In this document: positions 38,798 through 54,465 of the stretch, one piece after another
Layout: every line of letters begins with the position of its first letter
How positions within the stretch are numbered: the first letter of the stretch is position 1
Translations under genes and position numbers: made by a program
The notes under the pieces: generated by a model
What the model saw: the letters and a program-made list of their open reading frames with translations, nothing else
The model's database searches: none
What the model was told of the DNA's origin: nothing
DNA from: Tsuneonella suprasediminis
GTDB taxonomy: Bacteria > Pseudomonadota > Alphaproteobacteria > Sphingomonadales > Sphingomonadaceae
Assembly: GCF_003605755.1 (NCBI RefSeq)
Contig: NZ_RAHJ01000022.1
Coordinates: forward strand, 62,001-126,000
Reading direction: 5' to 3'
Length of the DNA: 64,000 nt

Positions 38798-39988
38798 CTA
38801 GCGTAAGGTGGCGGTTATGGCCTCAACTATGTGGGCGACCGAAAAATGACGTTCAAAGGCGCTTTCGCACTTAGCTTTAATATCTGTTTCGCGTTCGATG
38901 CGTTCCAGCAATTTAAGGCATTGCGCTTCGAGGTCATCGATATCGTTTGTTTCGCACGCCTCTCCTACGCCTTCCTCCGCGATCAACGTAATTAAGTCAT
39001 TGCCGGGATTGACATTAGCGAGAACAGGAATGCCGCTGCGGATATAGGTCAGAAATTTGCCAGGGATATTGTGTGACTTGTGTTGATGGTTGAGTGCCAC
39101 GATCCCCACGTGGCATTGTGTATACAACTCGGGGATTTCATCCGGTTCGATTTCATCATGGAACAATACATTTTTGAGTTCGAGCGATTGCGCCATGTTC
39201 CTCAATCGCAGTGTGTCACCGCCGCGCCCGACGAAGAGAAAGCCGAGATCCTCTCGCTTCTGCATACGGTCTGCAAGCTGCAGGATGATATCCATACCCT
39301 GCGCAACGCCCATGTTTCCAGCATAAACCAGAACCTTGCGACCGCAAAGAGGTGTTTGATCGATTCTGATCGATGAAGGGACGATCACTGGTTTGTCCAA
39401 CCAATTAGGCAAAACTTCGAGTACACGATCGGGAGACTTTCCGGCCCAGCGATCGAAGTATTTGATATTACCTGGAGTCTGGACGCCAATGATATCGGCC
39501 TGTCGATACTGGTTTTCTGCAACGCGGCGAAAGAAGCTATAGATCAGTCCTTTACGGAGAAGGCCCAGATCGAGGGCCCATTCCGGGAAGATATCACGAA
39601 TTATTAGGTAACCTTTGCATCGACTCGTTGCCTTGAGGGCACGGACAAAAGGTGCATGAAAAATCGATGGGGAATACCATATGACAGCGTCCCACCGATC
39701 CGTGACTAGGGGACTCTTCCGGAAATTGCGGAGCATCGCAAAGGGCATGAGAAATTCATTGAGTGTACGCCGTGCGTATCCGAGATCCTTGATGGTGGGC
39801 GCTCGCAGTCGTACGATACGGACATCTTCCCACTCCTGCACATGCCAAGGCCTGTCGATGTCGGAATCCGGGAGGAAAACCGTTAGATCATGTCCTTGCC
39901 GAGCAAATTCGCGCGACAGATCGCGCAATTGGACCGCGCCTGAAGTTCTGAGCGGAGGAAAGGTATCGGCGACCAGAGCGATCTTCAT
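38798..39988 (-). CDS. GT4 glycosyltransferase, WbuB/FucNAc-transferase-like
   Basis: A 396-residue GT-B glycosyltransferase. The acceptor domain opens 'KIALVADTFPPLRTSGAVQLRDL', typical of WbuB-type enzymes; the donor domain has 'VLVYAGNMGVAQGMDIIL' and 'ELYTQCHVGIVALNHQHKSHNIPGKFLTYI'. In E. coli O26 and other clusters, WbuB follows the fnlABC genes and is thought to transfer N-acetyl-L-fucosamine. Here it also lies directly after capG (11-base gap), so it is the best candidate for the L-FucNAc transferase. Confidence 0.85.
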   Translation of the reverse strand: MKIALVADTFPPLRTSGAVQLRDLSREFARQGHDLTVFLPDSDIDRPWHVQEWEDVRIVRLRAPTIKDLGYARRTLNEFLMPFAMLRNFRKSPLVTDRWDAVIWYSPSIFHAPFVRALKATSRCKGYLIIRDIFPEWALDLGLLRKGLIYSFFRRVAENQYRQADIIGVQTPGNIKYFDRWAGKSPDRVLEVLPNWLDKPVIVPSSIRIDQTPLCGRKVLVYAGNMGVAQGMDIILQLADRMQKREDLGFLFVGRGGDTLRLRNMAQSLELKNVLFHDEIEPDEIPELYTQCHVGIVALNHQHKSHNIPGKFLTYIRSGIPVLANVNPGNDLITLIAEEGVGEACETNDIDDLEAQCLKLLERIERETDIKAKCESAFERHFSVAHIVEAITATLR

Positions 39989-39998
39989 CGCTGCGACT

Positions 39999-41135
39999 TC
40001 AATATTTTTTCCAAACCACCCGATTTACATAATCGGTATAGCTATGAACGATTCGCAGTATCTTGTCGCTTACATTATTTGTGCTGTAATCTTGCACGAT
40101 TTGCAAATCTCGGCTGTCGCCCCGTCCTTGCTCTGCAAGAATGGCGAGGCCTTGCTTGATGCGGTCGCGATCAAGGCCCACCATCATGACTGCCGCCTCT
40201 TCCATTCCTTCTGGTCGCTCATGTGCTTCGCGCAGATTGAGGGCAGGAAAGTTCAGAATCGAACTCTCTTCAGTTATCGTGCCGCTATCAGAAAGCACGA
40301 CCTTTGCATGTATTTGCAGGTTAATATAATCGTGGAATCCAAGTGGTTTCAGTAGCCGTACACGATCATGAAAAGTCACCCCCAAGGCATCGACCCTCTT
40401 TTGGGTTCGGGGATGCGTAGAGACGACAACTGGCAAGTCATAATCTTCAGAAATTGTATTGAGGGCAACGACTAATTTTGTGAAATTCCGGTCACTTTCG
40501 ATGTTTTCTTCTCTGTGAGCGCTAACCAGAAAGTATTGGTTGTGCTCAAGCCCAAGCCTGTCGATTGCGCCTGATGCCTTAATTTGCGGCATATAATGGT
40601 GTAGTACTTCACTCATTGGACTGCCGGTTTTGATAACGCGATCGGGTGGTAGCCCTTCTCGCAGCAGATATTCTCGGGCAATCGTACTGTAAGTGAGATT
40701 GATGTCGGCGGTATGATCGACAATGCGTCGGTTGGTTTCTTCTGGCACCCGCATGTCGAAGCAACGATTTCCTGCTTCCATGTGAAAAATCGGAATTTGC
40801 CGACGCTTGGCAGGAATGACAGAGAGGCAGCTATTGGTATCGCCTAAAACCAAAAGAGCTTCAGGTTGGATATCTGCGATCACTTTGTCGACTGCGGTAA
40901 TCAGGTTTCCAATCGTATTGGCCGGGCTGCAGCTGCCATCAGCGCTATTCAGGAAATGATTTGGCTTGCGAATCTGGAGGTCGTCAAAGAAAATTTGATT
41001 GAGCTCGTAATCATAGTTCTGTCCTGTATGCACAAGAATATGATCGCAATGTTCATCGAGGACAGCGAGAACGCGGGAAAGGCGAATAATTTCTGGTCGC
41101 GTTCCGACCACAGTCATGACTTTGAGCTTTTTCAT
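39999..41135 (-). CDS. capG: UDP-N-acetyl-L-fucosamine synthase (CapG/FnlC/WbjD 2-epimerase)
   Basis: A 378-residue member of the UDP-GlcNAc 2-epimerase superfamily but of a different subgroup from wecB. The motif set is 'VGTRPEIIRLSRVL', 'LVHTGQNYDYELNQIFF', 'LGDTNSCLSVIPAKR', 'FHMEAGNRCFDMRVPEETNRR'. This CapG/FnlC form takes the UDP-L-talosamine product of CapF to UDP-L-FucNAc. The start at 41135 (MKKLKVMTVV) follows the capF stop by 1 base. Together capE-capF-capG are a full pathway from UDP-GlcNAc. Confidence 0.93.
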   Translation of the reverse strand: MKKLKVMTVVGTRPEIIRLSRVLAVLDEHCDHILVHTGQNYDYELNQIFFDDLQIRKPNHFLNSADGSCSPANTIGNLITAVDKVIADIQPEALLVLGDTNSCLSVIPAKRRQIPIFHMEAGNRCFDMRVPEETNRRIVDHTADINLTYSTIAREYLLREGLPPDRVIKTGSPMSEVLHHYMPQIKASGAIDRLGLEHNQYFLVSAHREENIESDRNFTKLVVALNTISEDYDLPVVVSTHPRTQKRVDALGVTFHDRVRLLKPLGFHDYINLQIHAKVVLSDSGTITEESSILNFPALNLREAHERPEGMEEAAVMMVGLDRDRIKQGLAILAEQGRGDSRDLQIVQDYSTNNVSDKILRIVHSYTDYVNRVVWKKY

Positions 41136-41136
41136 T

Positions 41137-42270
41137 TTAAACCGTGCTGGGAATTGTATCTGGCCGTTCGCGATCAAAGATCTCATTAGCCCATAGCATT
41201 ACGATCAATTCATCATCCCCGACATTGGTGACGTCGTGCGACCATCCGGGAATTGATTCAACGATTTGCGGCTTCTGGCCTGAGGTCGTTATTTCGATTG
41301 CTTCGTTCGAGAGGAGGTGTCGGAACCGAAACCGGGCCTGACCTTGCATGACAAGGAACTTCTCGGTCTTTGTGTGATGATAATGTCTGCCGCGTATTAT
41401 GCCTGGCTTCGCCGTGAAAAAGCTGAATTGGCCACTGTCAGCGGTTTTCAACATCTCTACGAATACACCGCGTTCATCGCCGTATGAGGGAATGTCATAG
41501 GCAAAGCGATCGCTGGGTAGGTAGCTTAGGTACGTGGCATATAGGCACCGGGTAAGGCCTGTGCCGACGCGATCTGTCAGTAATGTTTCACGCGAAACGG
41601 GAAAGGCCGAAATCTGGTGTGCCAGCCGGCCTAGAGTTATCTCGTATTCCGGCGAAACGGACCCCCAGTGCAGCCCCGGCCTTGCTCCGTGGAGAAATGG
41701 TAGGAATGCCTCGACGACGTCGTCGATGTATACCAGCCGAATGGTCTTATTCGGGTCGTCAATCCGAATTGGCAGGCTTCGGGCAATGTTGTGACAAAAT
41801 GTCGCAACGACCGAATTGTAATTCGGGCGGCACCATTTGCCGAACACTCCGGGCAGGCGGAAGATAATGGCCGGGGTGTCAATCCGCTCCGTCAGCGCAC
41901 GAATCGCTTCCTCTGCGGCAAGCTTGCTTTTACCATAAGGGTTATCGCAAGCCGCTTGCGTGGATGAAGTGAAAAGTAGTGCGATCCGCCGTCCTGTCGC
42001 GGCAAATTCTTCCTCAATTGCCTGACAAATCGATGTCGTGAGCCCGGTGTTCACCTGGTCGAAGGCGTTCGGGTCTTCCGGTCTGTTTTCGGCCGCGAGA
42101 TGGATCACTACATCCGAGCTGGAAACGCGTTCTTTCAATTGCGCGACGGTATCGTCCCTGCTGAAAGTCGACAGCTTCAGGTCGTTGATTTCTTGCAGTC
42201 TGATCGACAGATTGCGCCCTACAAATCCATTCGCGCCTGTAATCAGAATCCGGATGGGTTCGCGCGTCAT
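41137..42270 (-). CDS. capF: CapF/FnlB/WbjC bifunctional reductase/3-epimerase
   Basis: A 377-residue two-domain enzyme of UDP-L-FucNAc synthesis. Residues 1-250 are an NADPH-dependent SDR domain (GANGFVGRNLS near residue 13; 'YGKSKLAAEEAI' with catalytic Tyr and Lys). Residues 260-375 are a cupin with the metal-binding 'RGRHYHHTKTEKFLV'. In the S. aureus CapF model the cupin epimerises C3 and the SDR reduces C4. It lies 4 bases after capE and 1 base before capG. Confidence 0.95.
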   Translation of the reverse strand: MTREPIRILITGANGFVGRNLSIRLQEINDLKLSTFSRDDTVAQLKERVSSSDVVIHLAAENRPEDPNAFDQVNTGLTTSICQAIEEEFAATGRRIALLFTSSTQAACDNPYGKSKLAAEEAIRALTERIDTPAIIFRLPGVFGKWCRPNYNSVVATFCHNIARSLPIRIDDPNKTIRLVYIDDVVEAFLPFLHGARPGLHWGSVSPEYEITLGRLAHQISAFPVSRETLLTDRVGTGLTRCLYATYLSYLPSDRFAYDIPSYGDERGVFVEMLKTADSGQFSFFTAKPGIIRGRHYHHTKTEKFLVMQGQARFRFRHLLSNEAIEITTSGQKPQIVESIPGWSHDVTNVGDDELIVMLWANEIFDRERPDTIPSTV

Positions 42271-42274
42271 TGAG

Positions 42275-43303
42275 CTACTCCTCAGGTTCCACGTGCTCCC
42301 CGCGAACCATAGCCTGCATAAAGCGCAGCTTCATCAAAAGCGATTTCATTCCCTCCACATCCAGTCGAGTGGTGTTGTGTGAGTTATAATCTTCGGCCTC
42401 GGAAATCCGCACTTCGCCTGCTTCGACGAATTTGCCGTAGTTCAAATCGCGCAAATCTGGCGGGACGCGGAAATACCCCCCAAGATCCTCCGCCGCCACC
42501 ATTTCTTCCCGGCTTAGGAGAACCTCGAACAGTTTCTCGCCATGGCGGGTGCCGATCGTGTTGATCGGATGGTTTGGAGCACCCAACAGATCAGTCAGGG
42601 CTTGGGCTAAGGTTGCGATTGTCGCTGCAGGTGCTTTCTGGACAAAAATCTCCCCAGGATTCCCGTTTTCGAAAGCATACAAAACCAGATCGACCGCATC
42701 ATCCAGAGTCATCATGAACCGGGTCATGGTGGGATCAGTAATGGTAATCGGCTCTCCCGCACGGACTTGATTGGCGAAGAGAGGGATAACCGATCCGCGC
42801 GATGCCATCACATTGCCATATCGAGTGGCGCAGATCACGGTCTGGTCGCTGGAGCGTGACTTTGCGACGATAACTTTTTCCATCATCGCTTTGCTGATGC
42901 CCATCGCGTTGATTGGATAGACGGCCTTATCCGTACTCAGGCAAACAACCCGCTTCACCCCACATGAAATAGCGGCCTCCAGCGTGTTTTCGGTCCCCAA
43001 CACATTGGTTTTCACCGCCTCAAGCGGGTGAAATTCGCACGACGGCACCTGCTTTAACGCGGCCGCATGATAGACATAGTCTGCTCCGCGCATGGCAGGC
43101 AGGATCGACTGATAATCCCGCACATCGCCAATGTAGAATTTCAGCTTGGGATCGGCATAGCGCTTGCGCATGTCGTCCTGCTTCTTCTCGTCCCGACTGA
43201 GGATACGGATTTCCTTGAGGTCGGAATCGAGAAAACGGCGCAGCACGGCGTTGCCGAAAGAGCCGGTACCACCAGTAATCAGCAGGGTCTTGTCAGAGAA
43301 CAA
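42275..43303 (-). CDS. capE: CapE/FnlA/WbjB UDP-GlcNAc 4,6-dehydratase (5-inverting)
   Basis: A 342-residue SDR dehydratase that removes water from UDP-GlcNAc with inversion at C5. 'LLITGGTGSFGNAVLRRFL' is the NAD motif. 'EIRILSRDEKKQDDMRKRY', 'HAAALKQVPSCEFHPLEAVKTNVLGTEN', 'STDKAVYPINAMGISKAMMEKV' and 'HGEKLFEVLLSREE' all match CapE rather than PseB. The frame opens at GTG 43312, but a GAGGAG ribosome site overlaps that codon and lies 8 bases before TTG 43303, whose product begins MFSDKTLLITGG as family members do. No pseB lies nearby. Confidence 0.93.
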   Translation of the reverse strand: MFSDKTLLITGGTGSFGNAVLRRFLDSDLKEIRILSRDEKKQDDMRKRYADPKLKFYIGDVRDYQSILPAMRGADYVYHAAALKQVPSCEFHPLEAVKTNVLGTENTLEAAISCGVKRVVCLSTDKAVYPINAMGISKAMMEKVIVAKSRSSDQTVICATRYGNVMASRGSVIPLFANQVRAGEPITITDPTMTRFMMTLDDAVDLVLYAFENGNPGEIFVQKAPAATIATLAQALTDLLGAPNHPINTIGTRHGEKLFEVLLSREEMVAAEDLGGYFRVPPDLRDLNYGKFVEAGEVRISEAEDYNSHNTTRLDVEGMKSLLMKLRFMQAMVRGEHVEPEE

Positions 43304-43311
43304 CGCGGCCA

Positions 43312-43317
43312 CTCCTC
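43312..43317 (-). promoter_or_regulatory. Ribosome binding site that selects the capE TTG start
   Basis: GAGGAG on the minus strand, 8 bases before TTG 43303. It overlaps the alternative GTG (43312-43310), which therefore cannot be used with this site. Confidence 0.7.
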
Positions 43318-43332
43318 ACGGAAATCTCACAG

Positions 43333-44499
43333 CTACCATTCATGATCGACAATACTCCTGAACATCGAGATATTTTCCCGGCGAATATCACTACTTTTGG
43401 CAAAATTTCGCCCATAACTCTCGACTGCTTTGCGGAGGCGGGTGTGTTCGTCCTCATCAAGCGCGGCCATGGCGTCGATAGCACTTGCCCAACCGGTGCG
43501 GTCTCGAAGGGGGATAACGTTGATGCCATCTTCTTGCCCCCCCTGCCAAGGGGTTTTGTCACTCACAATCACAGGGGTACCCGCGCATATTGATTCAAAA
43601 ATGACGTGCCCAAAGTTTTCACTATGGGTCGGGAATGCAAATAGATCATATAGGGCGAAAGTTGAAGCGACATTGTTATGTTCGAGTGGGCCATAGTAAT
43701 TGGTGCATATGTTTCTCGGCAATGAGGAAATTTTCAATTTACATGCGTGCCAATATTCCATATCTTCAATCGGACCAAATATGTCGAGTATGATATTTGA
43801 TCGGGACATTTGTAAAATATCTAAAAGCCCGTCTAAGTTTTTAATTGGTGAAATTCGTGATATAAAAACAATACGAATCTCTCCAGCGACTTTTTCCTTT
43901 CTGACATGAGCCGCCTGACGGCTAAGTGCTCTATCAGAAACGGGGTCGAGCGCTACCCGAATTCGATCCCTTGCGTCAGGGAAGACTTTTAAAATGTCAT
44001 CGGCTTCCATTTTACTTGAAGCATGCCAGAAAACATCCCTATATAGCCTAAGTAAATTTGAATTTTTAATATAAAAAAGCTTCCTGAGGCGTTTTATTTT
44101 AAGGGCAGCAGGCGAAAACTCTCCTCTCGGGGCAATTATAATGGGAATCTTGCCCGTAGTGGTTTTTTGTGCAAAATAAGGCCCAATGGAGCCCTTGGCG
44201 CTAAAAAAACTATTAAGGTAAATCGCGTCAAAATTTCCATCGGACATGATCTTTTTAATTCCAAGCGGCCCAAATTGGGCTGGCGGAGCGTAAAATATCG
44301 GCCCGTTCGGCCGTTGCAGCCAGCGCCCAACCTCCACATTATCATAGGAGGAAACATCCCCCAGATCCCGGTCGCGAGTGAAGATGCACAAAGAGACTTC
44401 TGGGTTTAGTGTTTCGCGCATATTTGCGATTGTAGTGATTGGCCCACCCGCCTTGAATCCTGGCTGGTAATAATCGGCAATGCATAGAATTTTAAGCAT
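43333..44499 (-). CDS. GT4 family glycosyltransferase
   Basis: A 388-residue GT-B glycosyltransferase. It opens 'KILCIADYYQPGFKAGGPITTI', and the donor domain has 'RIVFISRISPIKNLDGLLDIL' and 'FPTHSENFGHVIFESICAGTPVI', the EX7E motif. The retained ATG at 44499 lies after the Wzy-like stop region: the two genes overlap if the longer frame is used. Sequence is AT-rich compared with the core genes, like wzy. It probably adds one of the repeat-unit sugars. The donor cannot be predicted. Confidence 0.9.
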   Translation of the reverse strand: MLKILCIADYYQPGFKAGGPITTIANMRETLNPEVSLCIFTRDRDLGDVSSYDNVEVGRWLQRPNGPIFYAPPAQFGPLGIKKIMSDGNFDAIYLNSFFSAKGSIGPYFAQKTTTGKIPIIIAPRGEFSPAALKIKRLRKLFYIKNSNLLRLYRDVFWHASSKMEADDILKVFPDARDRIRVALDPVSDRALSRQAAHVRKEKVAGEIRIVFISRISPIKNLDGLLDILQMSRSNIILDIFGPIEDMEYWHACKLKISSLPRNICTNYYGPLEHNNVASTFALYDLFAFPTHSENFGHVIFESICAGTPVIVSDKTPWQGGQEDGINVIPLRDRTGWASAIDAMAALDEDEHTRLRKAVESYGRNFAKSSDIRRENISMFRSIVDHEW

Positions 44500-44518
44500 G
44501 CAGCCATACTCCTCGTTA

Positions 44519-45682
44519 TCAACCGATTGCTGGGCTCTTTGCTTGAGCACTTGCGTTTGAAGCTGGCTGGCGTCGAGAGAGTATTTGAGCGAAAAATAGC
44601 GACAATGGAATTTCTGGCCTCAGTAGGAATGCCTCAAACATCGACAAAATTAGAAAAGTACTTGCCATTAAGAGTGTAATATTTCCCTGCCTCCTAATGT
44701 TAAATAAATATAATAATAAAATAATAGAGCTTCCAATAGCCCCAATTCCGGAAAGAAGCATCAAATATCCGCTATCTACGTCCTCCCCATCCAATAATTT
44801 CCATCCAGAAATTATTTCCCATATTGATTTATTTTGCAAAAAATTACCATATAAATAGGGGCGGTTGCTAAATAGGTAATTCATCTCTCTGTTGCTGTTA
44901 TTAATCATGTAATACGTTGCCGCAATACAGATCAAAGGCGTTATATATGCAAAAAGCAATAATGCCTTTCTAAACCATAAGTATCTCTTGAGAGACGTAT
45001 TTGCCATCATTAAAATCGCCGAAATTATCAATCCTGCCATAGCTGTGCGACTATCAGTTCTCAGGAAGACGGCAACCGCCAAGCCAACGGCAAGTATTGC
45101 AAAAAATAACTTTGCTTTTGAGTACTTTATATGGATCGCGTAAATAGACAGCAGTGCAAAAGAAAGGTAAATTGCTGACGCTTGGTTTGCGTTTGCGAAT
45201 CCCAACGTGGACCGTAAACGATTGCCAAAATTTGTTGTCGTATCTGCAATCTGACCCGACATCAATAAGGCAATGTGAACAAATACCAATATTGAAGTTA
45301 CTATAAGAATTGTATTTATGGACTTATTTTTTCCAATTAATTCTAGACTCATTGACATCATTACAATGAATACAATATTTGCTCCAATATAAGATTGATT
45401 GAGAGTAAGCATGAAAAAAAGTGCAAGAAGTGGAAATGTATATTTCGCAGATATCGATTTATCAATAATAATGTTAACTGAAAACAATGTTGCTGAAATA
45501 ATTCGGAAATAAATTTTGTATTCTGGGTCTATTACAGACGTTGATGTAGATAGGAGGTATCCTATATATAGAACAAGAAGTCCTATTAAATTAATAACGA
45601 AACTTCTTCTCATTCTAAAGGAATATTTGTTTTTCCTAATAAATCGATGTGGATTTTTGTATTCATATTTTGTCCCCGACAT
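44519..45682 (-). CDS. wzy: Wzy-like O-antigen/capsule polymerase
   Basis: A 387-residue protein with about ten hydrophobic membrane segments and a larger periplasmic loop near residues 250-300, the layout of Wzy polymerases. Wzy proteins share little sequence; this call rests on topology and on position between a glycosyltransferase and the nonulosonate genes. The gene is the most AT-rich in the window, a usual sign of Wzy genes acquired horizontally. It is distinct from the Wzy_C/WaaL-type protein at 54520-56007. Codon use differs strongly from the flanking core genes. Confidence 0.75.
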   Translation of the reverse strand: MSGTKYEYKNPHRFIRKNKYSFRMRRSFVINLIGLLVLYIGYLLSTSTSVIDPEYKIYFRIISATLFSVNIIIDKSISAKYTFPLLALFFMLTLNQSYIGANIVFIVMMSMSLELIGKNKSINTILIVTSILVFVHIALLMSGQIADTTTNFGNRLRSTLGFANANQASAIYLSFALLSIYAIHIKYSKAKLFFAILAVGLAVAVFLRTDSRTAMAGLIISAILMMANTSLKRYLWFRKALLLFAYITPLICIAATYYMINNSNREMNYLFSNRPYLYGNFLQNKSIWEIISGWKLLDGEDVDSGYLMLLSGIGAIGSSIILLLYLFNIRRQGNITLLMASTFLILSMFEAFLLRPEIPLSLFFAQILSRRQPASNASAQAKSPAIG

Positions 45683-45734
45683 GCGCTAGTCTCTATACTT
45701 CAAAGATCAGATTGAAAGATAATGTATACATATT

Positions 45735-47162
45735 TTACATGGATTTGAGTATATATGGGTATATTGCGGCAGACAGTTTTTGTGCTGGCTCACAGGGAAG
45801 AAGAAAGTTTAATGATTGATCGAATGTAGAATAATAGTAAGCGCAAACGAAATCTTCGTTGTACTGATCGTCCCAATCAATTGGCTGGGCGAGTTCGGTG
45901 CACAATAAGTGGTGTAACTGTGTTGGATTGTCGCAACGTGTTACCCCCTTGTGAAAAGAATAGAACACGTCGCCGTAAAGCAGCACTCGCTTTTTGAGGA
46001 GCAATGCTTCGTAACCAACAGTGCTTGTGAGCGTCAAAACCCCTCTGGATGCCTTGATAAGTTCCTTGGTCGGCTCGCCGGGGCCAAGGATCACCACATT
46101 AGGTAGCCTCTGCAAATCGCGATAAAACGATACAGGAGGGAATGCCCAGGCACTCATGTGGTCCTTCACGTACAGTCGCATACCTTCAGGCAGATTGAAG
46201 GCAATGTTTCTGATCACCTCATACTCGTTGAGGTAGGTGCCTGCGAGGATAGATGTTGAAGACTCGGGATGGAAGTGCAGCGGATAGAGGAAGAAGTCCG
46301 CTTCATAATCCGGAGAGGAATAGAAATTCCGCACCTTTCCGGTTCGTAACCGCCGTTTCAGATTGCGAGCGAACAGGTTGAAATGAGTCCGTAGCGGATT
46401 TCCAACCTGAAACGCACTCGTTCGATCATCGCCCAGGTGACGGAATAGCGATTTGGCCTTCTTCAGCCGATCGCGACGCAGATATCGTTTGAGGATGCCG
46501 ACATTGTCGAGACCGTTTATCTTCATGTAGTCGGGAACGGTCTTTTCGATGCCGGCCAGATATTCGCGCACCCAGTTCCGCACCTCTGCAGTGGGAACAA
46601 CAGAACCTGTCTGGATATCGCCAAAGGCGCGTTCAACCACCTTGTCGTTCCATGGGTCTGCCGTGATGGCAAACCTACCCGGCAAACGGGATGGTGAAAG
46701 CCCGACATATTGGGCACCATTCTGCTGAGCCATGAACAAGGCAAAATGCGCGAACGTATTGGATACGTTCTCGTAAATGACTGTATCGATTTGATGATCG
46801 GCGATGATCTGTTCAAAAAAGCCCAGCAGAGTGCTTTTTAGGCGATCAAAGAAGGGGGTGTCCGCCTCTTCACCCCATATATTGTAGATTTGCGAACGCT
46901 CGAAATCTGAAAGGAGGGCGCCGTTGAGATTATAGTGAGAATAGCGCCTTAACGTATCATGGTCGATTGCGTTTGAGGTGTAGTATTCAGAAAAGGTATG
47001 CACGGTGGCAAACTCGAGCGTGTCGAGCTGGTTCTCCTCTCGGGAAAACGTGGAATCCACTGCAATGTGGACACTGTGCCCATCATTGTGCAGTAAGCGC
47101 GCCAATGCATTGAAAAAATTAAAATAATTAGGCGCACTATTGGATAGGAGCAGAATATTCAT
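45735..47162 (-). CDS. Capsule-synthesis-type (KpsS/KpsC-like) glycosyltransferase, candidate pseudaminic acid transferase
   Basis: A 475-residue protein. It opens 'ILLLSNSAPNYFNFFNALARLL'. The C-terminal half has 'FFLYPLHFHPESSTS', 'LYVKDHMSAWAFPPVSFY' and 'RGVLTLTSTVGYEALLLKKRVLLYGDVFYSF', the pattern of the Capsule_synth family that includes KpsS and KpsC Kdo transferases. Those use CMP-activated sugars; so does CMP-pseudaminic acid. It lies directly after pseI (7-base gap) and before wzy. I infer that it transfers the nonulosonic acid; no direct evidence of substrate is available. Confidence 0.7.
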   Translation of the reverse strand: MNILLLSNSAPNYFNFFNALARLLHNDGHSVHIAVDSTFSREENQLDTLEFATVHTFSEYYTSNAIDHDTLRRYSHYNLNGALLSDFERSQIYNIWGEEADTPFFDRLKSTLLGFFEQIIADHQIDTVIYENVSNTFAHFALFMAQQNGAQYVGLSPSRLPGRFAITADPWNDKVVERAFGDIQTGSVVPTAEVRNWVREYLAGIEKTVPDYMKINGLDNVGILKRYLRRDRLKKAKSLFRHLGDDRTSAFQVGNPLRTHFNLFARNLKRRLRTGKVRNFYSSPDYEADFFLYPLHFHPESSTSILAGTYLNEYEVIRNIAFNLPEGMRLYVKDHMSAWAFPPVSFYRDLQRLPNVVILGPGEPTKELIKASRGVLTLTSTVGYEALLLKKRVLLYGDVFYSFHKGVTRCDNPTQLHHLLCTELAQPIDWDDQYNEDFVCAYYYSTFDQSLNFLLPCEPAQKLSAAIYPYILKSM

Positions 47163-47169
47163 GTGGCGA

Positions 47170-48222
47170 TCAGTCGGCGATCAGTTCTGATGTGACCGCT
47201 GTATTGCGATTGACGCTCACGATAACCTTCTTGCCGATCAAGCTGTCGAGATGCTTCGGCGCCAGCCCATATCCAGGGCGAACACTTCGAACGGCGTCTT
47301 CGGTGATAACTGCCCCGGCTTCTAAATCCTTCACGAAATAGAGCGAGCGGCGAAATTGGACATTCCCCTGTTCGCTTGATTTGCGCCCATAATCGATATT
47401 ACCGAGTGCGGACCATGCGGTCTTTGCGTCGCGGCATAATGCGGCAAGATCAGCTGGTTCCAGCGAGAAGCTGTCGTCCGGGCCGCCACCGCTGCGATCG
47501 AGTGTAAAGTGTTTTTCAATGATCGATGCGCCTAGTGCAACGCTTGTTATGGCAGTCGTATTATCGAGTGTATGGTCCGAAAGGCCGGTAACCAGCCCGA
47601 ACCGCTCGATCATATCGGGTATTGTCCGGAGGTTGTAATCTTCGGCAGGAGCAGGATAGCCGCTGACACAGTGTAGGATGGCCAATTCCTTGCATCCGCC
47701 ATCTCGTGCTGCCTCAATCGCTTCGGCGATCTCCTCCTCATCCGCCATGCCAGTCGATATTATCATTGGCTTACCAGTGGTTGCCACATATCGGATCAGG
47801 GGCAAATCGACTGCTTCAAACGAGGCAATCTTATACGCAGGTGCACCAAGATCTTCCAGCAGATCGACGGCAGTATTGTCGAATGGTGAGCTGAAAATGG
47901 TGATGCCGACTTCACGAGCCCGGTCGAACAGCGGTTTGTGCCATTCCCATGGCGTATGCGCTTCCGCGTAAAGGTCATACAGCGTTCTGCCATCCCACAG
48001 GCCGCCCGAAATGCGGAAGTCGTCGCTATCGCCATCGAGCGTAATCGTGTCAGGCCGGTAGGTCTGCAGCTTCACTGCGTCGGCGCCTGCCTCCTTGGCA
48101 GCGTCAATGATTGCAAGAGCCTTATCGAACTGCCCGTTATGGTTTGCTGACAATTCCGCGATAACATAGGGAGGGGAACTGGCACCGATAGCGCGGTCCG
48201 CGATCTTGAAACTCCTACTCAT
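47170..48222 (-). CDS. pseI: Pseudaminic acid synthase
   Basis: A 350-residue NeuB-family enzyme that condenses phosphoenolpyruvate with a 6-deoxy-hexosamine to give a nonulosonic acid. The TIM barrel begins 'AIGASSPPYVIAELSANHNGQ'; 'GADAVKLQTYRPDTITLD', 'ITIFSSPFDNTAVDLLEDLGAPAYKIAS' and 'EKHFTLDRSGGGPDDSFSLEP' are PseI landmarks, and the C-terminal ~60 residues are the SAF domain. ATG at 48222 overlaps the formyltransferase end by 8 bases. The proposed substrate here is the 4-N-formylated amino sugar released by PseG. Confidence 0.92.
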   Translation of the reverse strand: MSRSFKIADRAIGASSPPYVIAELSANHNGQFDKALAIIDAAKEAGADAVKLQTYRPDTITLDGDSDDFRISGGLWDGRTLYDLYAEAHTPWEWHKPLFDRAREVGITIFSSPFDNTAVDLLEDLGAPAYKIASFEAVDLPLIRYVATTGKPMIISTGMADEEEIAEAIEAARDGGCKELAILHCVSGYPAPAEDYNLRTIPDMIERFGLVTGLSDHTLDNTTAITSVALGASIIEKHFTLDRSGGGPDDSFSLEPADLAALCRDAKTAWSALGNIDYGRKSSEQGNVQFRRSLYFVKDLEAGAVITEDAVRSVRPGYGLAPKHLDSLIGKKVIVSVNRNTAVTSELIAD

Positions 48223-48859
48223 AGAGCTTCTCCAAGGTAATTTTGTAGGTGTGCCCTCGAAATCGAAAATGCGCAGGAAACCGCTCGGGATCGCACACTC
48301 GAATGAGGTCGAACTGCTCGCCAAGAGGCATGTCTATGGAAATCTCGCTATCATCGGGGGTTCTTTTCCGGTGGTAGGTTACCTTTTGGGTGCTGTCCTG
48401 CGCCTCTGGCCGGATAGTCTCGAAGTTGGCAACCGCGAAATCGATTAGCTCAATCTCAGCCGAGAAAAGAGCCTCGTTAATTTCATCCGACAAAAAATGA
48501 GACGGGATGTCAATCGTAAGCTTGTGCCAAATGTCCCCGCTATCGATTGTGTCTTCGGCTTCTAGTAGCGTAACGACGAGATGGTCGGCGCCCCCAACAA
48601 TGCTCCACACATGAGGGCTCCATCCTCGCCCGGTGGGCAAGTCGCTTGCATGGATAACCAACACCTTCTTGAACTTGTCGCGATCGGCTTTTTCGATCTT
48701 CTGTGAGCAGGAAATCAGAAAGAGAATTTCTCCGCCTACTACATCATGGATATCATCCACCAACGAAACATTGAGAGCTTTGCCGTTGAGTTTCGCCCAT
48801 GCTCGCAAGTGCGGCATTACGGGATGGCGACGATCACTGCAAAGGAGGGTAACATTCAT
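48215..48859 (-). CDS. PseJ-like sugar N-formyltransferase in the PseH position
   Basis: A 214-residue member of the formyltransferase superfamily (methionyl-tRNA formyltransferase fold). Core motif: 'VIHASDLPTGRGWSPHVW' (residues 68-85), with the catalytic His at 70 and catalytic Asp at 106 in DSGDIW. The canonical NxH reads VIH, so the Asn is Val68. It overlaps the pseG end by 4 bases and pseI by 8, so is made with them. Pathways with PseH acetylate N4 here; formyltransferases named PseJ have been described that formylate instead, giving Pse5Ac7Fo. The start at 48859 (MNVTLLCSDRRHP) is chosen; upstream codons overlap pseG far too much. Confidence 0.82.
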   Translation of the reverse strand: MNVTLLCSDRRHPVMPHLRAWAKLNGKALNVSLVDDIHDVVGGEILFLISCSQKIEKADRDKFKKVLVIHASDLPTGRGWSPHVWSIVGGADHLVVTLLEAEDTIDSGDIWHKLTIDIPSHFLSDEINEALFSAEIELIDFAVANFETIRPEAQDSTQKVTYHRKRTPDDSEISIDMPLGEQFDLIRVCDPERFPAHFRFRGHTYKITLEKLYE

Positions 48860-49971
48860 TGCTTTCGGCACATCATCTCTCCAGAAACGCGCTGTGCTCC
48901 CTCCCCATCGGTGACCGCCGCGGCAGCGCGGCTCATCGCGGCAAGGCGGGAAGGAAGATCGCGCGACGCAAACAGGTCCATAAAGGTTGAATGCATCGAA
49001 TCCATATCGCATTCGAGCGCAGCCCCGGACTGGACAACCGCTTGCGTGATGCGTTCCTGATTGGCGGCGATCGAGGCCAACACGGCTGGAAGACCAACGC
49101 TACACCGTTCCCATGTGGTGCTCCCGCCCGCGCCAATTGCCACATCGGAGACTGACATCAATTCCGCCATATTGGTTACGCCCACTTTCACCGATGTAGC
49201 GACGCGCATTCCGTTTGTGAGTTCCCGTATATCGGCAAGCCAAGGTGCGTGAGGCCCCATTACGGCGACCACGTGGACGTCCTCTGGTAATGGACAGTCA
49301 TTGAGCGCCATCAACACTTGGCGGGTGAAATTGCCTTTGTCCACACCGCCCATGGTTACGAGAATTTGCTGCAAAGTCGGCGAACTGCGTCGTCTAAGGC
49401 TGGCGTCGCGCGCTTCTGAGAACTCAGGGCGGAGAAGTGCGTATTCTGGCCCCATCAACAGGTGCGTATTGCGCGATGCCCGACTCGCATAATCTGCTGC
49501 ATCGCGGCCAAGGTTTTGATCGAGGAGAAGATCGCAATCGTGCGCCCGGTCGGCAAGATCGTCGATCACCAACAGTTTGATGCAGCTCTCGCGCATTGCG
49601 CGTTCCCATTGTATATCAAGACCGTAGTGATCGACCACAAGCCAATCGACTGGCCCCATCGAGGAGAACGTTGAGAGCGCGGATTGGCTGTCGCCTGCAT
49701 CATTTTCCCAAGATGTTCCTAGCCACGCCGCATGTGGAGGTTGACCGTCCGCAGTAACGCCCTTCTGCAATGATGAACTGGGGTGTTCATCCAACACGAA
49801 GGCGGTAAAGCCTTGGCGCTCGATTTGTTCAAGCAAATGGCCTTCATGGGCGCGAGACAGGAAAATGCACTCCGCTCCACGCGAGCGCAGCATTGACGCC
49901 AACGTCAGGCAGCGCATGACATGGCCTGTGCCGATTTCCAGCGATGCATCCGTGCGAAAAGCTACGCGCAT
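48856..49971 (-). CDS. pseG: PseG UDP-sugar hydrolase
   Basis: A 371-residue GT-B-type hydrolase that releases UDP from the diacylated altropyranose before PseI acts. It opens 'VAFRTDASLEIGTGHVMRCLTLASML', the PseG signature, and has 'TMGGVDKGNFTRQVLMAL' and 'VAIGAGGSTTWERCSVGLPA' in the donor domain. ATG at 49971 is preferred over GTG 49995, which adds eight non-conserved residues and touches the pseF stop. No PseH acetyltransferase domain is fused at its end, unlike some PseG proteins. Confidence 0.92.
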   Translation of the reverse strand: MRVAFRTDASLEIGTGHVMRCLTLASMLRSRGAECIFLSRAHEGHLLEQIERQGFTAFVLDEHPSSSLQKGVTADGQPPHAAWLGTSWENDAGDSQSALSTFSSMGPVDWLVVDHYGLDIQWERAMRESCIKLLVIDDLADRAHDCDLLLDQNLGRDAADYASRASRNTHLLMGPEYALLRPEFSEARDASLRRRSSPTLQQILVTMGGVDKGNFTRQVLMALNDCPLPEDVHVVAVMGPHAPWLADIRELTNGMRVATSVKVGVTNMAELMSVSDVAIGAGGSTTWERCSVGLPAVLASIAANQERITQAVVQSGAALECDMDSMHSTFMDLFASRDLPSRLAAMSRAAAAVTDGEGAQRVSGEMMCRKQ

Positions 49972-49994
49972 GTTTGAGGCACGTAGTTCACCCA

Positions 49995-50681
49995 CTATAG
50001 TGTCTGCACCTTAAAGAGAAGCTCTGCACGTTGCCAGTCATCCGGTGTATCAATGTCCTGAACGCGATAGCGTGGTAACTTGATAGGTGCTGCATGAGGT
50101 CCAAACAAAGGCTGTCCAGAAAGCCAGGCACTTGCTTTCCCCCAATAGAATTGGCCCGCGTCGTGCCACGCTTCTTCAAGGTCTTGCGAGCGGGACGCGA
50201 ACTGCTCTGGCTCAAACATCTCCAGTCGGTCGTCGGCATTCAGGCGCAGGGCGCGTTGAATCGGCGCGGGATAGTCCGTAATAGTGAACGCAAATTCAGC
50301 CCCGGTTCTATGCAGGATGTCGAGCCCGCGCCGCAAATCGGCAACCTGAACGAATGGTGCGGTCGCGTAGATGCAACACACATCATCAACTGGATGATGG
50401 TGCTCGTTCTCCCAGCGAATGGCATCAGCTACGACGGGTATCGTCCCGACATAGTCATCCGATAGCTCGGGTGAGCGAACGAAAGGGGTTTCCGCGCCGT
50501 ATGCACGCGCGACTTCTGCAATTTCGGCATCATCGGTACTCACGATGATGCGGTCGAACAGGGCACTCTCGATCGCTGCAGCTATCGAATAAGAGATCAT
50601 AGGGCGGCCGGCGAAGGGTCGGATATTCTTGCGTGGAATACGCTTGCTGCCGCCCCGTGCCGGTATAACGGCAAGCCTCAT
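49995..50681 (-). CDS. pseF: PseF CMP-pseudaminic acid cytidylyltransferase
   Basis: A 228-residue CMP-sugar synthetase. It opens 'LAVIPARGGSKRIPRKNIRPFAGRPMI', typical of NeuA/PseF enzymes, and has 'IIVSTDDAEIAEVARAYGAETPFVRSPELS' and 'DVCCIYATAPFVQVADLRRGL'. It activates the nonulosonic acid as CMP-Pse for transfer. The length and sequence favour PseF over NeuA. It overlaps the pseC stop by 4 bases (ATGA). Confidence 0.93.
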   Translation of the reverse strand: MRLAVIPARGGSKRIPRKNIRPFAGRPMISYSIAAAIESALFDRIIVSTDDAEIAEVARAYGAETPFVRSPELSDDYVGTIPVVADAIRWENEHHHPVDDVCCIYATAPFVQVADLRRGLDILHRTGAEFAFTITDYPAPIQRALRLNADDRLEMFEPEQFASRSQDLEEAWHDAGQFYWGKASAWLSGQPLFGPHAAPIKLPRYRVQDIDTPDDWQRAELLFKVQTL

Positions 50682-51844
50682 TGTTGAAGCGCAGCCCTTA
50701 GGGAAGCGACAACAAAATCCTGCTCGTCAGAAGTGAGCGAGGGGTGCATCGGGATGCTGATCGCCTCGCGGTAGTACTGTTCGGACTCTGGGTGATCGCC
50801 CCAGTCGAAGCCCATCTTCTGATAATAGGGCTGGGTATGAACGGGGATGTAATGGAGATTGACCATTATGTTCCTGGCCCGCAATTCCTCGAACACCTCC
50901 TTGTGAGTGATCGGCGCGATTTGCTCCAGATTCAGACGAATCACATATAGGTGAAAGGCGGAGTAGCTATCTGGGCTCTGCCACGGTGTTGTTAACGGAA
51001 GGTCCGCCAGCAACGCGTCATAACGTCTGGCAATTTCGTGCCGTCGCTCGACGTATCCGTGCAGCCGAGTCATTTGGCTTGCGCCGAGTGCTGCCTGAAT
51101 GTCGGTCATCCGGTAGTTATATCCGAGTGCCACTTGCTGATAATACCATGGGCCGTCCATCTCATGCGTCATGAGCTGGGGATCTCGGGTAATGCCATGG
51201 CTGCGATATAGCGACATGCGGGTGGCCAGCGTATCATCGTTGGTCAAAGCCATCCCGCCTTCCCCGGTTGTCACGATCTTGACCGGGTGGAAGCTGAAAA
51301 CGGTGATGTCGCTATAGCGGCCATTCCCGATCGGCTCTCCCTTGTACCGCCCACCGATGGCGTGCGAGGCATCCTCAATGACTTTGAAGCCATATTTTTC
51401 CGCCAATGCGGCGATCGCCGCCATGTCGCATGGCTGCCCGGAAAAATGCACCGGGATCACGATCTTGGGAAGGCGCCCGGCCCTTTCGGCCTTAATCAGT
51501 TTCTTCTCAAGCTCGACCGGGCAGAGGTTGTAGGTCTTGGGATCGATATCGACAAAATCGACACTGGCGCCACAATATAGCGCACAATTTGCAGAGGCGA
51601 CGAATGTATTGGGTGTTGTCCAGAGCCAGTCTCCCGGCCCCAGCTCCAATGCGAGGCAGGCGATATGCAGCGCTGACGTTGCGCTGTTTACGGCAAATGC
51701 GTGACGGGCGCCGGTTTCTGCCAATACGGCCTGTTCGAACGCAATGCCGGCAGACCCTTGAGTGAGATTTGTCGAATTGAGCACTGCTGTGACGGCGTCG
51801 ATGTCCGCCTGAGTGATATGCTGTTGGCCATAACGGATGATCAT
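50678..51844 (-). CDS. pseC: PseC UDP-4-keto-6-deoxy-L-AltNAc aminotransferase
   Basis: A 388-residue PLP-dependent DegT/DnrJ/EryC1 aminotransferase. Its start at 51844 (MIIRYGQQHITQADIDAV) resembles PseC, as do 'STNLTQGSAGIAFEQAVLAETGARHAFAVNSATSALHI' (read in parts), 'DASHAIGGRYKG' and the PLP lysine in 'FSFHPVKIVTTGEGG'. It transaminates the UDP-4-keto sugar to UDP-4-amino-4,6-dideoxy-L-AltNAc. Its substrate must come from a 5-inverting 4,6-dehydratase; no pseB is in the window, but CapE makes a compatible 4-keto sugar. It begins the pse run. Confidence 0.92.
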   Translation of the reverse strand: MIIRYGQQHITQADIDAVTAVLNSTNLTQGSAGIAFEQAVLAETGARHAFAVNSATSALHIACLALELGPGDWLWTTPNTFVASANCALYCGASVDFVDIDPKTYNLCPVELEKKLIKAERAGRLPKIVIPVHFSGQPCDMAAIAALAEKYGFKVIEDASHAIGGRYKGEPIGNGRYSDITVFSFHPVKIVTTGEGGMALTNDDTLATRMSLYRSHGITRDPQLMTHEMDGPWYYQQVALGYNYRMTDIQAALGASQMTRLHGYVERRHEIARRYDALLADLPLTTPWQSPDSYSAFHLYVIRLNLEQIAPITHKEVFEELRARNIMVNLHYIPVHTQPYYQKMGFDWGDHPESEQYYREAISIPMHPSLTSDEQDFVVASLRAALQQ

Positions 51845-51875
51845 GTTTTGCTGCTGCCAAGATTTGGGGAGAGAG

Positions 51876-53156
51876 TCACGCTGCTTGCTGATATTGAGGG
51901 TGCGGTTGCAGCGCCCAATATGCAAGCGACTTAAAGATAAGAATCGATAGGAAAGCCAAATTCAGCGCGATTGGTATTGCCAGAGTACCATAAGCGTGGC
52001 CGAGGGCCCATGCCGCAATGGTGAAGACAGCCAAAGCGATAATGTGGCTTGCGATTATCGAGCGATCATGACTGCAAGCGTAAAGCGCATAGTGCGGTAT
52101 CATGCCGAGGCAATTTAATGCCAACGCGCTCAGTATCCAAGGGAAAAGAGAGACCTTGGACAGATACTCTGCCTTGCCGATCCACGCGAGCAGGTAAGGG
52201 AGTAGTGCGAGGCTGACCACTGAGAACGCACCAATGAACAATATTGTTTGAAGCAGAGACTTTCGTAGAACTCGCTGAAAAGCCTCACGATCACCATGCT
52301 TGTGGTGGCGTATCAATGCTGGATAAGTGAATGCAAAGACACCGGCATCGAGAAATACCATCATCGAACTAGCTACGCCTGTAAACAAAACGTAGGCTGC
52401 TACTACTTCGACACCGCCAAGCGCTTCAATCCAGAAGCGATCCAAGGTTTGTATTGCCCGAAGTGCCAGTGTGGCTATCAAGAATGCAAAGCTGACTTTC
52501 AGTCCGCGCCGCGCCCAGCTCCAGTCGATTCGGTCATGCCAGCCCCCCATCTTGAGCGATGCCACCTTCCATACCCCGATAATGGCGGCCAGAGCGCCAC
52601 CGAGAAACCACAATCCCAATACAACCCACAGAAGGCGGCTCGAAGGGTCCAGCGCCATCAATAGGACAGATGCGATCGCCCAACTGCCCTGCCGCAGAAA
52701 CAAGATGATGCTGGCAGTGATTTGCTCCGAGAGTGCGATGAGCAAGCGCATGATTTCTTGATTGAAGTGCTCCAGCACCAGAATTGGTAAAAACGCGATA
52801 AGGGCGACGCTACTCCAGCCAAGCTTGCTCAAAACCACCAACGAGGCAGGGGCAACTACTAAATAAATGATCGCCGAAATACAGATCTGCGTTTTTAGGA
52901 AGTGACCTCTTTTTTTGGCAGGAGCGTGTACTATTTCACGAGTGGTAAAAACGTAAAAATCGAGGCCAACAATATATAGCGTGTAACCGACAGCTGCTGT
53001 AAAGAGCCCATAGTTACCCACTTCTGCAGGAGAGAGGAACTTGGCCAGGAAAAATATCAATAAGAACCGGGACCCTAGCGTTCCAAAGCGCAGGGTTATA
53101 TTGATGATTCGGTTTCTTGCGTCTTCCAATGAAAAGCCTGAATATAAGATGGGCAA
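51876..53156 (-). CDS. wzx: Wzx-like oligosaccharide flippase
   Basis: A 426-residue membrane protein with 12 or more transmembrane helices of the polysaccharide synthesis (MOP) superfamily. It opens 'NIITLRFGTLGSRFLLIFFLAKFLSPAEVGNYGLFTA' (given in part), the usual first-helix pattern. It should move the undecaprenyl-linked repeat unit to the periplasm for polymerisation by Wzy. It lies between the initiating sugar transferase and pseC. Only 31 bases separate it from the pseC start. Confidence 0.87.
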   Translation of the reverse strand: MPILYSGFSLEDARNRIINITLRFGTLGSRFLLIFFLAKFLSPAEVGNYGLFTAAVGYTLYIVGLDFYVFTTREIVHAPAKKRGHFLKTQICISAIIYLVVAPASLVVLSKLGWSSVALIAFLPILVLEHFNQEIMRLLIALSEQITASIILFLRQGSWAIASVLLMALDPSSRLLWVVLGLWFLGGALAAIIGVWKVASLKMGGWHDRIDWSWARRGLKVSFAFLIATLALRAIQTLDRFWIEALGGVEVVAAYVLFTGVASSMMVFLDAGVFAFTYPALIRHHKHGDREAFQRVLRKSLLQTILFIGAFSVVSLALLPYLLAWIGKAEYLSKVSLFPWILSALALNCLGMIPHYALYACSHDRSIIASHIIALAVFTIAAWALGHAYGTLAIPIALNLAFLSILIFKSLAYWALQPHPQYQQAA

Positions 53157-53172
53157 TGTAACAAACGACTAG

Positions 53173-54465
53173 CTATTTGGCTCCGAAACCCGATGTCATT
53201 ACGCGAACGGTTTTCATTACGATGAGTATGTCAATCCAAAGAGATGCGTTTCTCACATAATAAAAATCGAATCGTAGTTTCCTTGCGATGTCATCGACAT
53301 CGGTAACATGCCCTTGGTTGACTTGGGCCCACCCGGTTATGCCAGGCCGCACAATATGCCTGTAGCGATAAAACGGTACAGACGACTCATACAACATGGA
53401 TAAGTCGAGGGCTTCCGGCCTCGGACCGACCCAGCTCATGTCACCACGGATCACGTTGAAAATCTGTGGAAGCTCATCGAGGCGTGTCTTACGCAACACA
53501 CGTCCCACACGGGTGATGCGCGGATCGTTCTCTGCAGTAATCACGTCGTTGATCTTGTCTACCTGTGGGTCGGTATTGTCCCTGCTTCGCATTGTGCGAA
53601 ATTTATACACGCGGAATGTTTTTCCGCGGTATCCGACTCTGGTTTGGCGGAAGAAAACCGGCCCTGTTGAATCGATACGTATTATTGCAGCCAAGATGGC
53701 GAAAAGCGGGAGAAGCAGGGGGAGCAAGATTAACGAGCCTACCAAATCTGCAAGCCGCTTTGCGCTTAGATACGTCAGATTCGGGATCAATGAACCAAGG
53801 TTGTTTTCCCGCATATGATCAATGCGGACCTGTCCGGTGTATAGCTCGAGAACAGAACGATAGTGGTATACTGGCGCGCCTTGAATGGCAGCTTCGGCCA
53901 GAAATTTCTCCCAGGCAACAGGATGGGAAAAGTGCAGATCAGCGATAATTGAGCCCTCGAGGCCACCCTCTTCCAGAAGGGCCTCTGCTTGGTCGATTGA
54001 GAGCAGATCTTCTGGTCCAATCACTTCGTAAATCTCATTGATCCGACCGCCGGGTACGAGCCAGCGTTTCGGAATGCTGGCGCGCGTGAGGGCGGCGAAT
54101 GTGAAATTCAAGAAGGTGGTAACCAGATAGGTCAATAACAAAATGACCAGACTATATGGAATACGGAGTATGCCGATAGCGAGGGCTGCGATCCCGAAGG
54201 ACAGGGAGGTGATCGGCAAAACATATGAGAGGCGGCGGGAATAAGCGAAATATCTTAGCCGCTCCAGCCCATACCAACTGGCTATTGTGGCAGCCATACT
54301 AAGTAGCAAGCTATTGATCCCGCTCTCGATAATGAGAGGTGCAACATGCCCACGGAACCAGCCGAATGGAACCAGGCATACTCCGGTCAGCAGGATCAAA
54401 AGCTGCACCCATGCGCGGTCCAGAGGGTGGCCTTGGCGCAGGGTTTTTGGGGCAATCTCGTTCAT
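53173..54465 (-). CDS. Polyprenyl-phosphate sugar-1-phosphate transferase (initiating enzyme)
   Basis: A 430-residue polyisoprenyl-phosphate sugar transferase. Four or five transmembrane helices occupy roughly the first 130 residues, then a cytoplasmic part. The catalytic domain from about residue 232 contains 'KRLADLVGSLILLPLLLPLFAI', 'GPVFFRQTRVGYRGKTFRVYKFRTM' and 'TRLDELPQIFNVIRGDMSWVGPRPE', with the catalytic Asp-Glu in DELPQ. It loads the first sugar phosphate onto undecaprenyl phosphate. It lies 54 bases after the ligase-like gene. The sugar (glucose, galactose or a HexNAc) is not predictable. Confidence 0.92.
   Translation of the reverse strand: MNEIAPKTLRQGHPLDRAWVQLLILLTGVCLVPFGWFRGHVAPLIIESGINSLLLSMAATIASWYGLERLRYFAYSRRLSYVLPITSLSFGIAALAIGILRIPYSLVILLLTYLVTTFLNFTFAALTRASIPKRWLVPGGRINEIYEVIGPEDLLSIDQAEALLEEGGLEGSIIADLHFSHPVAWEKFLAEAAIQGAPVYHYRSVLELYTGQVRIDHMRENNLGSLIPNLTYLSAKRLADLVGSLILLPLLLPLFAILAAIIRIDSTGPVFFRQTRVGYRGKTFRVYKFRTMRSRDNTDPQVDKINDVITAENDPRITRVGRVLRKTRLDELPQIFNVIRGDMSWVGPRPEALDLSMLYESSVPFYRYRHIVRPGITGWAQVNQGHVTDVDDIARKLRFDFYYVRNASLWIDILIVMKTVRVMTSGFGAK

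Follow-up and report, generated by a model that had tools for sequence, protein, structure and literature searches.

The window analysed here, a 64-kb stretch of contig NZ_RAHJ01000022.1 of Tsuneonella suprasediminis, contains a minus-strand gene run (38798-54465) that joins the pseC, pseF, pseG and pseI genes of pseudaminic acid synthesis to the capE, capF and capG genes of N-acetyl-L-fucosamine (L-FucNAc) synthesis and holds no pseB. Judging from gene content and comparison across genomes, CapE, a UDP-N-acetylglucosamine (UDP-GlcNAc) 5-inverting 4,6-dehydratase, most likely makes the substrate of PseC as well as that of CapF. We regard it as highly probable that the run is an L-FucNAc and pseudaminic acid locus with CapE as the shared first enzyme, in which pseB is dispensable. 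Two known pathways would thus be joined at a shared first step.

Gene content and dehydratases of the genome

The genes of the two branches, all with open reading frames on the minus strand, and the gene in the pseH position are as follows:

42275-43312, minus strand: capE, UDP-GlcNAc 5-inverting 4,6-dehydratase of the CapE/FnlA type, proposed shared first enzyme (FnlA and PseB model scores, genome search, T-x9-M-x3-K motif)
41137-42270, minus strand: capF, UDP-L-arabino-hexulose reductase with a C-terminal cupin-type domain, L-FucNAc branch (NF047837, 563.8 against a cut-off of 500; PF14667)
39999-41135, minus strand: capG, UDP-GlcNAc 2-epimerase family, L-FucNAc branch (TIGR00236 (WecB), 230.1 against 210.15); start set at 41135 within the listed open reading frame (ORF) 39999-41186
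50678-51844, minus strand: pseC, aminotransferase of the pseudaminic branch, proposed other user of the CapE product (TIGR03588, 548.3 against 423.5); ATG at 51844, listed ORF 50678-51925, with 51841 used for the gap count
49995-50681, minus strand: pseF, pseudaminic acid cytidylyltransferase (TIGR03584, 328.5 against 205.7)
48856-49995, minus strand: pseG, UDP-sugar hydrolase (TIGR03590, 302.6 against 153.55)
48215-49012, minus strand: formyltransferase-like gene in the pseH position (fmt 45.1 bits; PF00551 24.5, cut-off 26.1; both below cut-off); listed ORF coordinates, true start probably near 48870
47170-48324, minus strand: pseI, pseudaminic acid synthase (TIGR03586, 506.8 against 340.25; NeuB model 286.5, under the NeuB cut-off); listed ORF coordinates, start probably 48223

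As the initial annotation had stated, the four pse genes are present, all above curated NCBIfam cut-offs, and capE, capF and capG stand together in a tight run, separated by gaps of 4 nt (capE-capF) and 1 nt (capF-capG), with capF and capG above their cut-offs. The distance from pseC down to capE is 7.4 kb, whereas a PseB gene would be expected directly upstream of pseC.

Against the FnlA model TIGR04130 CapE scores 641.5 bits, and against the PseB model TIGR03589 it scores 318.5 bits, short of the PseB cut-off of 407.75. The TIGR04130 cut-off of 730 bits is reached neither by CapE nor by any of the 397 genomes of a phylum sample, and therefore looks too narrow for the wider family. The nearest solved structures are 4j2o, which we take to be WbjB, and CapE 3vvb. 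CapE holds the T-x9-M-x3-K motif in the form given by PMC7439481, with Met where PseB has the catalytic Tyr; this residue is Met in 57 of 57 CapE rows and Tyr in 54 of 54 PseB rows collected. On sequence grounds, the window enzyme is of the CapE/FnlA type rather than a PseB.

Searching the whole genome with the PseB model recovers capE (318.4 bits, cut-off 407.75), followed by matches of at most 33.3 bits and hence no pseB, and searching it with PF02719 (Polysacc_synt_2) recovers capE (348.9 bits), followed by matches of at most 52.5 bits and hence no second strong protein. A pseB elsewhere in the genome had been named at the outset as a finding that would overturn a shared CapE; neither model found one. 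It is very improbable that pseB is present and was missed, either in an assembly gap or as a gene too diverged for the model. The assembly is a draft of 22 contigs, and absence of PseB is unusual in the host's order, where 80 genomes match PseC at E 1e-100 and 69 of them carry a PseB that passes its cut-off (some of the PseC matches fall under PseC's own cut-off, and the 80 are the 84 PseC genomes less G096, G107, G111 and G113). Yet completeness is listed as 100%, no partial PseB match and no other strong PF02719 protein appear, and the usual pseB site directly before pseC is intact here: a wzx-like gene lies 31 nt away and the junction is whole. Moreover, the same gap recurs in 13 relatives with linked pse and cap genes and in 20 Pseudomonas, and it is unlikely that all of these are assembly gaps.

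The complete run reads, in order, sugar phosphotransferase, wzx-like, pseC, pseF, pseG, formyltransferase-like, pseI, Capsule_synth-family, wzy-like, GT4, capE, capF, capG and GT4. Intergenic gaps are 52 nt or less, several neighbours overlap, and terminator-like matches are near chance (20, against a shuffled mean of 18.0, standard deviation 5.5). The glycosyltransferase, wzx and wzy roles assigned within the run are putative. Three further genes complete the description:

51876-53156, minus strand: wzx-like putative flippase directly upstream of pseC (no NCBIfam match; flippase suggested by the look of the sequence)
45735-47162, minus strand: Capsule_synth-family protein (PF05159, 40.6 bits), possible pseudaminyl transferase
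38798-39988, minus strand: GT4 glycosyltransferase after capG (PF00534, 51 bits), possible L-FucNAc transferase, so named from its position

PseB and CapE across pse loci

The 75 named loci with the nearest PseC include 47 whose genomes have a PseB above cut-off and 20 with only a CapE-type gene. The four classes PseB-/CapE+, PseB-/CapE-, PseB+/CapE+ and PseB+/CapE- comprise 20, 8, 4 and 43 loci (Fisher p 2e-8), with L080 and L083, whose PseB/CapE-like genes are not assignable, counted negative. One locus of the survey, L013, lies on a contig labelled as an Akkermansia muciniphila metagenome-assembled genome (MAG) and has a PseC that groups with Burkholderiales; it is possibly mis-binned.

Thirteen of the 20 PseB-/CapE+ loci (13/75) show the linked form, in which pse and cap genes share one locus and capE lies 2.9-11.6 kb from pseC. 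Their hosts, which we take to represent Alpha-, Beta- and Gammaproteobacteria, are Massilia terrae, Massilia sp. Root133, Pseudogulbenkiania subflava, a Pseudomonas MAG, Paracoccus maritimus, Halopseudomonas laoshanensis, Polaromonas RGN.1, two Nitrincola, P. alcaliphila, Stutzerimonas kunmingensis, P. parasichuanensis and Psychrobacter immobilis 1184. All 13 loci match capE, capF and capG, the Paracoccus capF being distant (28% identity) with its C-terminal PF14667 domain kept, and in 12 of them pseC and capE run in the same direction. By tblastn, 11 of the 13 have a wzx-like gene immediately upstream of pseC, the place that pseB mostly occupies in the usual pse loci examined. A Mesorhizobium conjugative plasmid (L163, NZ_AP023244.1 189799-220824) has the same order with annotated pseC-F-G-H-I and an RmlD-like reductase in place of CapF; no gene annotated pseB occurs within the 31 kb examined, the rest of the strain lying outside the search.

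The slot between pseG and pseI, which PseH would fill, has variable content, and a fixed PseH partner was rejected on this ground. No pseH was found in the source locus, the part of the genome searched for it; its slot holds the formyltransferase-like gene, to which the genes at this position in L093 and L098 are 50-51% identical, and L101 carries two formyltransferase-like ORFs there. A GNAT gene (Pfam) occupies the slot in seven linked loci (L094, L095, L096, L099, L100, L103 and L104), so that one or the other type fills it in 10 of the 13; L102 has other genes, and L092 and L097 have no ORF of 100 aa. The formyltransferase-like gene suggests that the product of the source locus may be 7-N-formyl pseudaminic acid.

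These loci also bear on whether the pseudaminic branch is dead or decaying, with pseB lost and no pseudaminic acid made by the genes that are left. The source locus holds neither pseB nor a true pseH, and among the linked relatives L096 has no pseF match and L092 only a half-length pseG match. Such decay is nevertheless extremely unlikely: pseC, pseF, pseG and pseI are open and over cut-off in the source genome, pseC and pseI match with at least 96% coverage in 13 of 13 linked loci and pseF in 12, pseG matches with at least 85% in 12, and the acyl slot holds a GNAT or formyltransferase-like gene in 10. Separately, a 675-aa ORF in the expected pseF place of L096 (4988-7015) resembles an SpsF-type cytidylyltransferase fusion.

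The pseB-less arrangement is rare overall. PseB is over cut-off in 76 of the 79 phylum-sample genomes searched for it (78 with PseC over cut-off and G516, below it); of the 83 PseC genomes of that sample, four more were covered by the order survey, with PseB present, and the remaining one is the source genome. Across the 397 genomes, CapE occurs in 32, PseC over cut-off in 83 and both in two, the source genome and G576, and a general co-occurrence of CapE and PseC is not seen. G576 keeps PseB beside CapE; at its locus (L158), the matches to capF and to pseI are both split in two, and these genes may be broken. G640 and G724, with CapE and a PseC below cut-off, fall outside the PseB search.

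Across the order and phylum surveys, six PseC genomes have no PseB-model match at E 1e-60, and five of these also have no PseI and are probably not pseudaminic acid makers. A PseI search of 14 genomes found the gene in G000, G081, G090, G453 and G493 (partial PseB matches occur in G081 and G090) and did not find it in G021, G023, G045, G128, G158, G168, G293, G352 and G516; because PseI is missing as well, absence of PseB in these nine says little. The CapE-like genes of G128, G293 and G352, from the host's family, were set aside since PseI is absent and PseC falls below cut-off. These genes (L105, L107 and L106, respectively) form a distinct CapE-like clade beside a sub-cut-off PseC-like aminotransferase, and perhaps belong to another amino-sugar pathway.

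Unlinked genes in Pseudomonas and probable repeated origins

The other seven PseB-/CapE+ named loci (L052, L055, L061, L062, L063, L067 and L072) are from Pseudomonas, L063 being Pseudomonas jessenii DSM 17150: their pse genes lack pseB, and a CapE-type gene is found elsewhere, in a putative O-antigen locus, at a distance of 4-10 kb from a long WbpM-like protein. In L052, the one case examined in detail, the pse island adjoins flagellin and FliD genes.

A second Pseudomonas sample was drawn after the pattern had been seen in these seven genomes. Here 112 of 298 genomes carry a PseC that passes its cut-off, and 104 of them are new; 80 of these were searched in list order and 24 left out. G923, among the 80 searched, agrees in coordinates and scores with the phylum-sample genome G569, and the two are probably identical. 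PseB is present in 67 and absent from 13, and a CapE-type gene (312-333 bits) occurs in 13 of 13 PseB-less genomes against 1 of 67 PseB-bearing ones, giving 13, 0, 1 and 66 in the class order used above (Fisher p 4e-14). G901 has both genes on a single contig of 6.9 Mb, with 3.1 Mb or more between pseC and capE. The neighbours of CapE in the 13 PseB-less genomes (L164-L176) are capF and capG in seven and an RmlD-like reductase with a capG-like gene in six. Within the stretches fetched around the pse genes, pseC, pseF, pseG and pseI are all matched in 11 of 13 (G911 without pseG and pseI matches, G999 without a pseG match), and a flagellin gene is present in 11 of 13.

Trees of the quick kind were built for PseC, from the named loci and from Pseudomonas, and for CapE. 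The named-loci PseC tree, from which L086 was left out as too short, shows at least six changes of PseB state and four independent supported pairs in favour of complementarity, with none against; eight loci with neither or an unclear enzyme were not counted for changes or pairs. The Pseudomonas PseC tree combines the 13 new PseB-less genomes, 34 of the 67 PseB-bearing ones hand-picked for spread, 15 named Pseudomonas loci (7 without and 8 with PseB) and three linked loci. It shows nine changes of PseB state, at least seven of them forced by supported branches, and seven independent pairs, of which on average 6.8 are in favour, 0.2 show no difference and 0 are against (median sign test p 0.016). 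These changes do not separate gain from loss. Taken together, the two tables and the absence of any contrary pair on either tree support the proposal of the initial annotation that CapE may feed both branches.

A special CapE adapted to a double role is not supported. Linked-locus CapEs are interspersed with CapEs of genomes without pseudaminic acid genes instead of forming one clade, the linked state changes nine times on the best tree (at least four times forced by supported branches), and no residue is fixed in linked CapEs and rare (<20%) in the others. Since the linked CapEs are mixed and unmarked, an ordinary CapE seems enough, and the pse and cap modules probably came together more than once. 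Distances of PseC and CapE show no correlation (r 0.16, p 0.13), nor do those of pseC and pseI (r 0.08, p 0.24), while pseG and CapE are correlated (r 0.55, p 0.0006); because the pseC-pseI value is as low, the test says little on transfer of the locus in one piece.

Proposed shared pathway and its relation to known systems

The papers cited here by PMC number are represented by excerpts. CapE, WbjB and PseB yield the same keto-sugar product (PMC7439481); CapE carries out 4,6-dehydration and C5 epimerisation, H. pylori FlaA1 catalyses the same reactions, and CapF carries out C3 epimerisation and reduction (PMC3699295). Both papers back the premise, already put forward in the initial annotation, of a common product for PseB and CapE-type enzymes. 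PseB is able to epimerise its own product further (PMC7910423, PMC13317340), in a slower reaction whose C5 epimer is no PseC substrate (PMC7910423). In chemical terms sharing is therefore plausible, and how much PseC is present relative to the dehydratase would matter.

In the proposed pathway, the locus would build a surface polysaccharide containing pseudaminic acid, perhaps its 7-N-formyl form, and L-FucNAc. CapE would convert UDP-GlcNAc to UDP-2-acetamido-2,6-dideoxy-L-arabino-4-hexulose and release it. PseC would aminate part of the released keto-sugar, from which the formyltransferase-like protein, PseG, PseI and PseF would lead to CMP-pseudaminic acid, while CapF would epimerise and reduce the other part and CapG would then give UDP-L-FucNAc. 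Both branches would draw on one common cellular pool, in competition with each other, and PseB would be missing because CapE makes it unnecessary.

Another source of the PseC substrate, for example the Pen/Pal pair or an epimerase working together with a retaining 4,6-dehydratase, would leave CapE to L-FucNAc alone. In B. thuringiensis, Pen and Pal reach the same intermediate (as cited in PMC7439481), a PseB-free way to the PseC substrate that employs two dedicated enzymes and not a shared one, and neither a PseB nor an assignable CapE accompanies the PseC and PseI of G453 and G493. This alternative is very unlikely: the window genome has no second strong PF02719 protein, assuming that Pen/Pal would score well there, and the complementarity of PseB and CapE would be left unexplained.

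Several observations weigh against a CapE shared by both branches. The source genome is a draft. Eight of the 75 named loci have neither PseB nor an assignable CapE (L021, L022, L025, L046, L080, L083, L084 and L085; seven labelled MAG, L080 being Sporomusa). PseC and PseI pass their cut-offs in G453 and G493, where no CapE is assignable and the PseB model gives no match at E 1e-60 (G453) or one of only 260 bits (G493). CapE occurs beside a retained PseB in 4 of the 47 named genomes with PseB and in 1 of the 67 such Pseudomonas. In the phylum sample, only the source genome combines a CapE and a PseC above cut-off with the absence of PseB; the CapE rates in Pseudomonas apply to PseC-bearing genomes only; and with just four pairs the named-loci tree falls short of significance (p 0.125). 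On the chemical side, Met for Tyr suggests mechanistic differences (PMC3699295), and the Met-type SpsM of B. subtilis was inferred to give a non-inverted product (PMC7439481), so the Met motif is no proof of inversion.

PseC, PseF, PseG and PseI are common to the window locus and the PseB-C-H-G-I-F pathway of Helicobacter and Campylobacter, whereas the window has no PseB, a formyltransferase-like gene for PseH and a first step apparently from the other pathway. The capE-capF-capG order is that of CapE-F-G in S. aureus and of WbjB-C-D / FnlA-B-C in Gram-negative bacteria, the proposed difference being that the window CapE also feeds a second pathway. In C. jejuni, the slower second epimerisation by PseB yields an intermediate of the bacillosamine pathway (PMC7910423), and the product of one dehydratase can reach the enzymes of two sugar pathways there, as proposed for the window; C. 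jejuni, however, has separate dehydratases, PglF and PseB (PMC7439481), where the window would use one enzyme for both. An A. baumannii capsule survey gives the psaABC and fnlABC modules separately (PMC9676051). In the open-access literature, no title or abstract among the matches listed reports CapE or FnlA replacing PseB; subscription journals are mostly outside this search, and an earlier mention is possible.

More broadly, it is quite probable that PseB is dispensable wherever a CapE-type enzyme is present, even at a distant locus, that CapE was gained many times with loss of pseB following, and that in part of Pseudomonas flagellin glycosylation needs a gene of another surface polysaccharide, probably the O-antigen. 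Deleting a gene of that other polysaccharide locus would then abolish flagellin pseudaminic acid in these Pseudomonas. If CapE is shared as proposed, an annotation gap would be closed, and genomes annotated with a break in the pseudaminic acid pathway may have the full route by way of CapE. Two glycans would be tied to one enzyme, so that CapE mutants, phage receptors and inhibitors would affect both, and the locus would provide a natural example in which a single unstable keto-sugar serves two enzymes.

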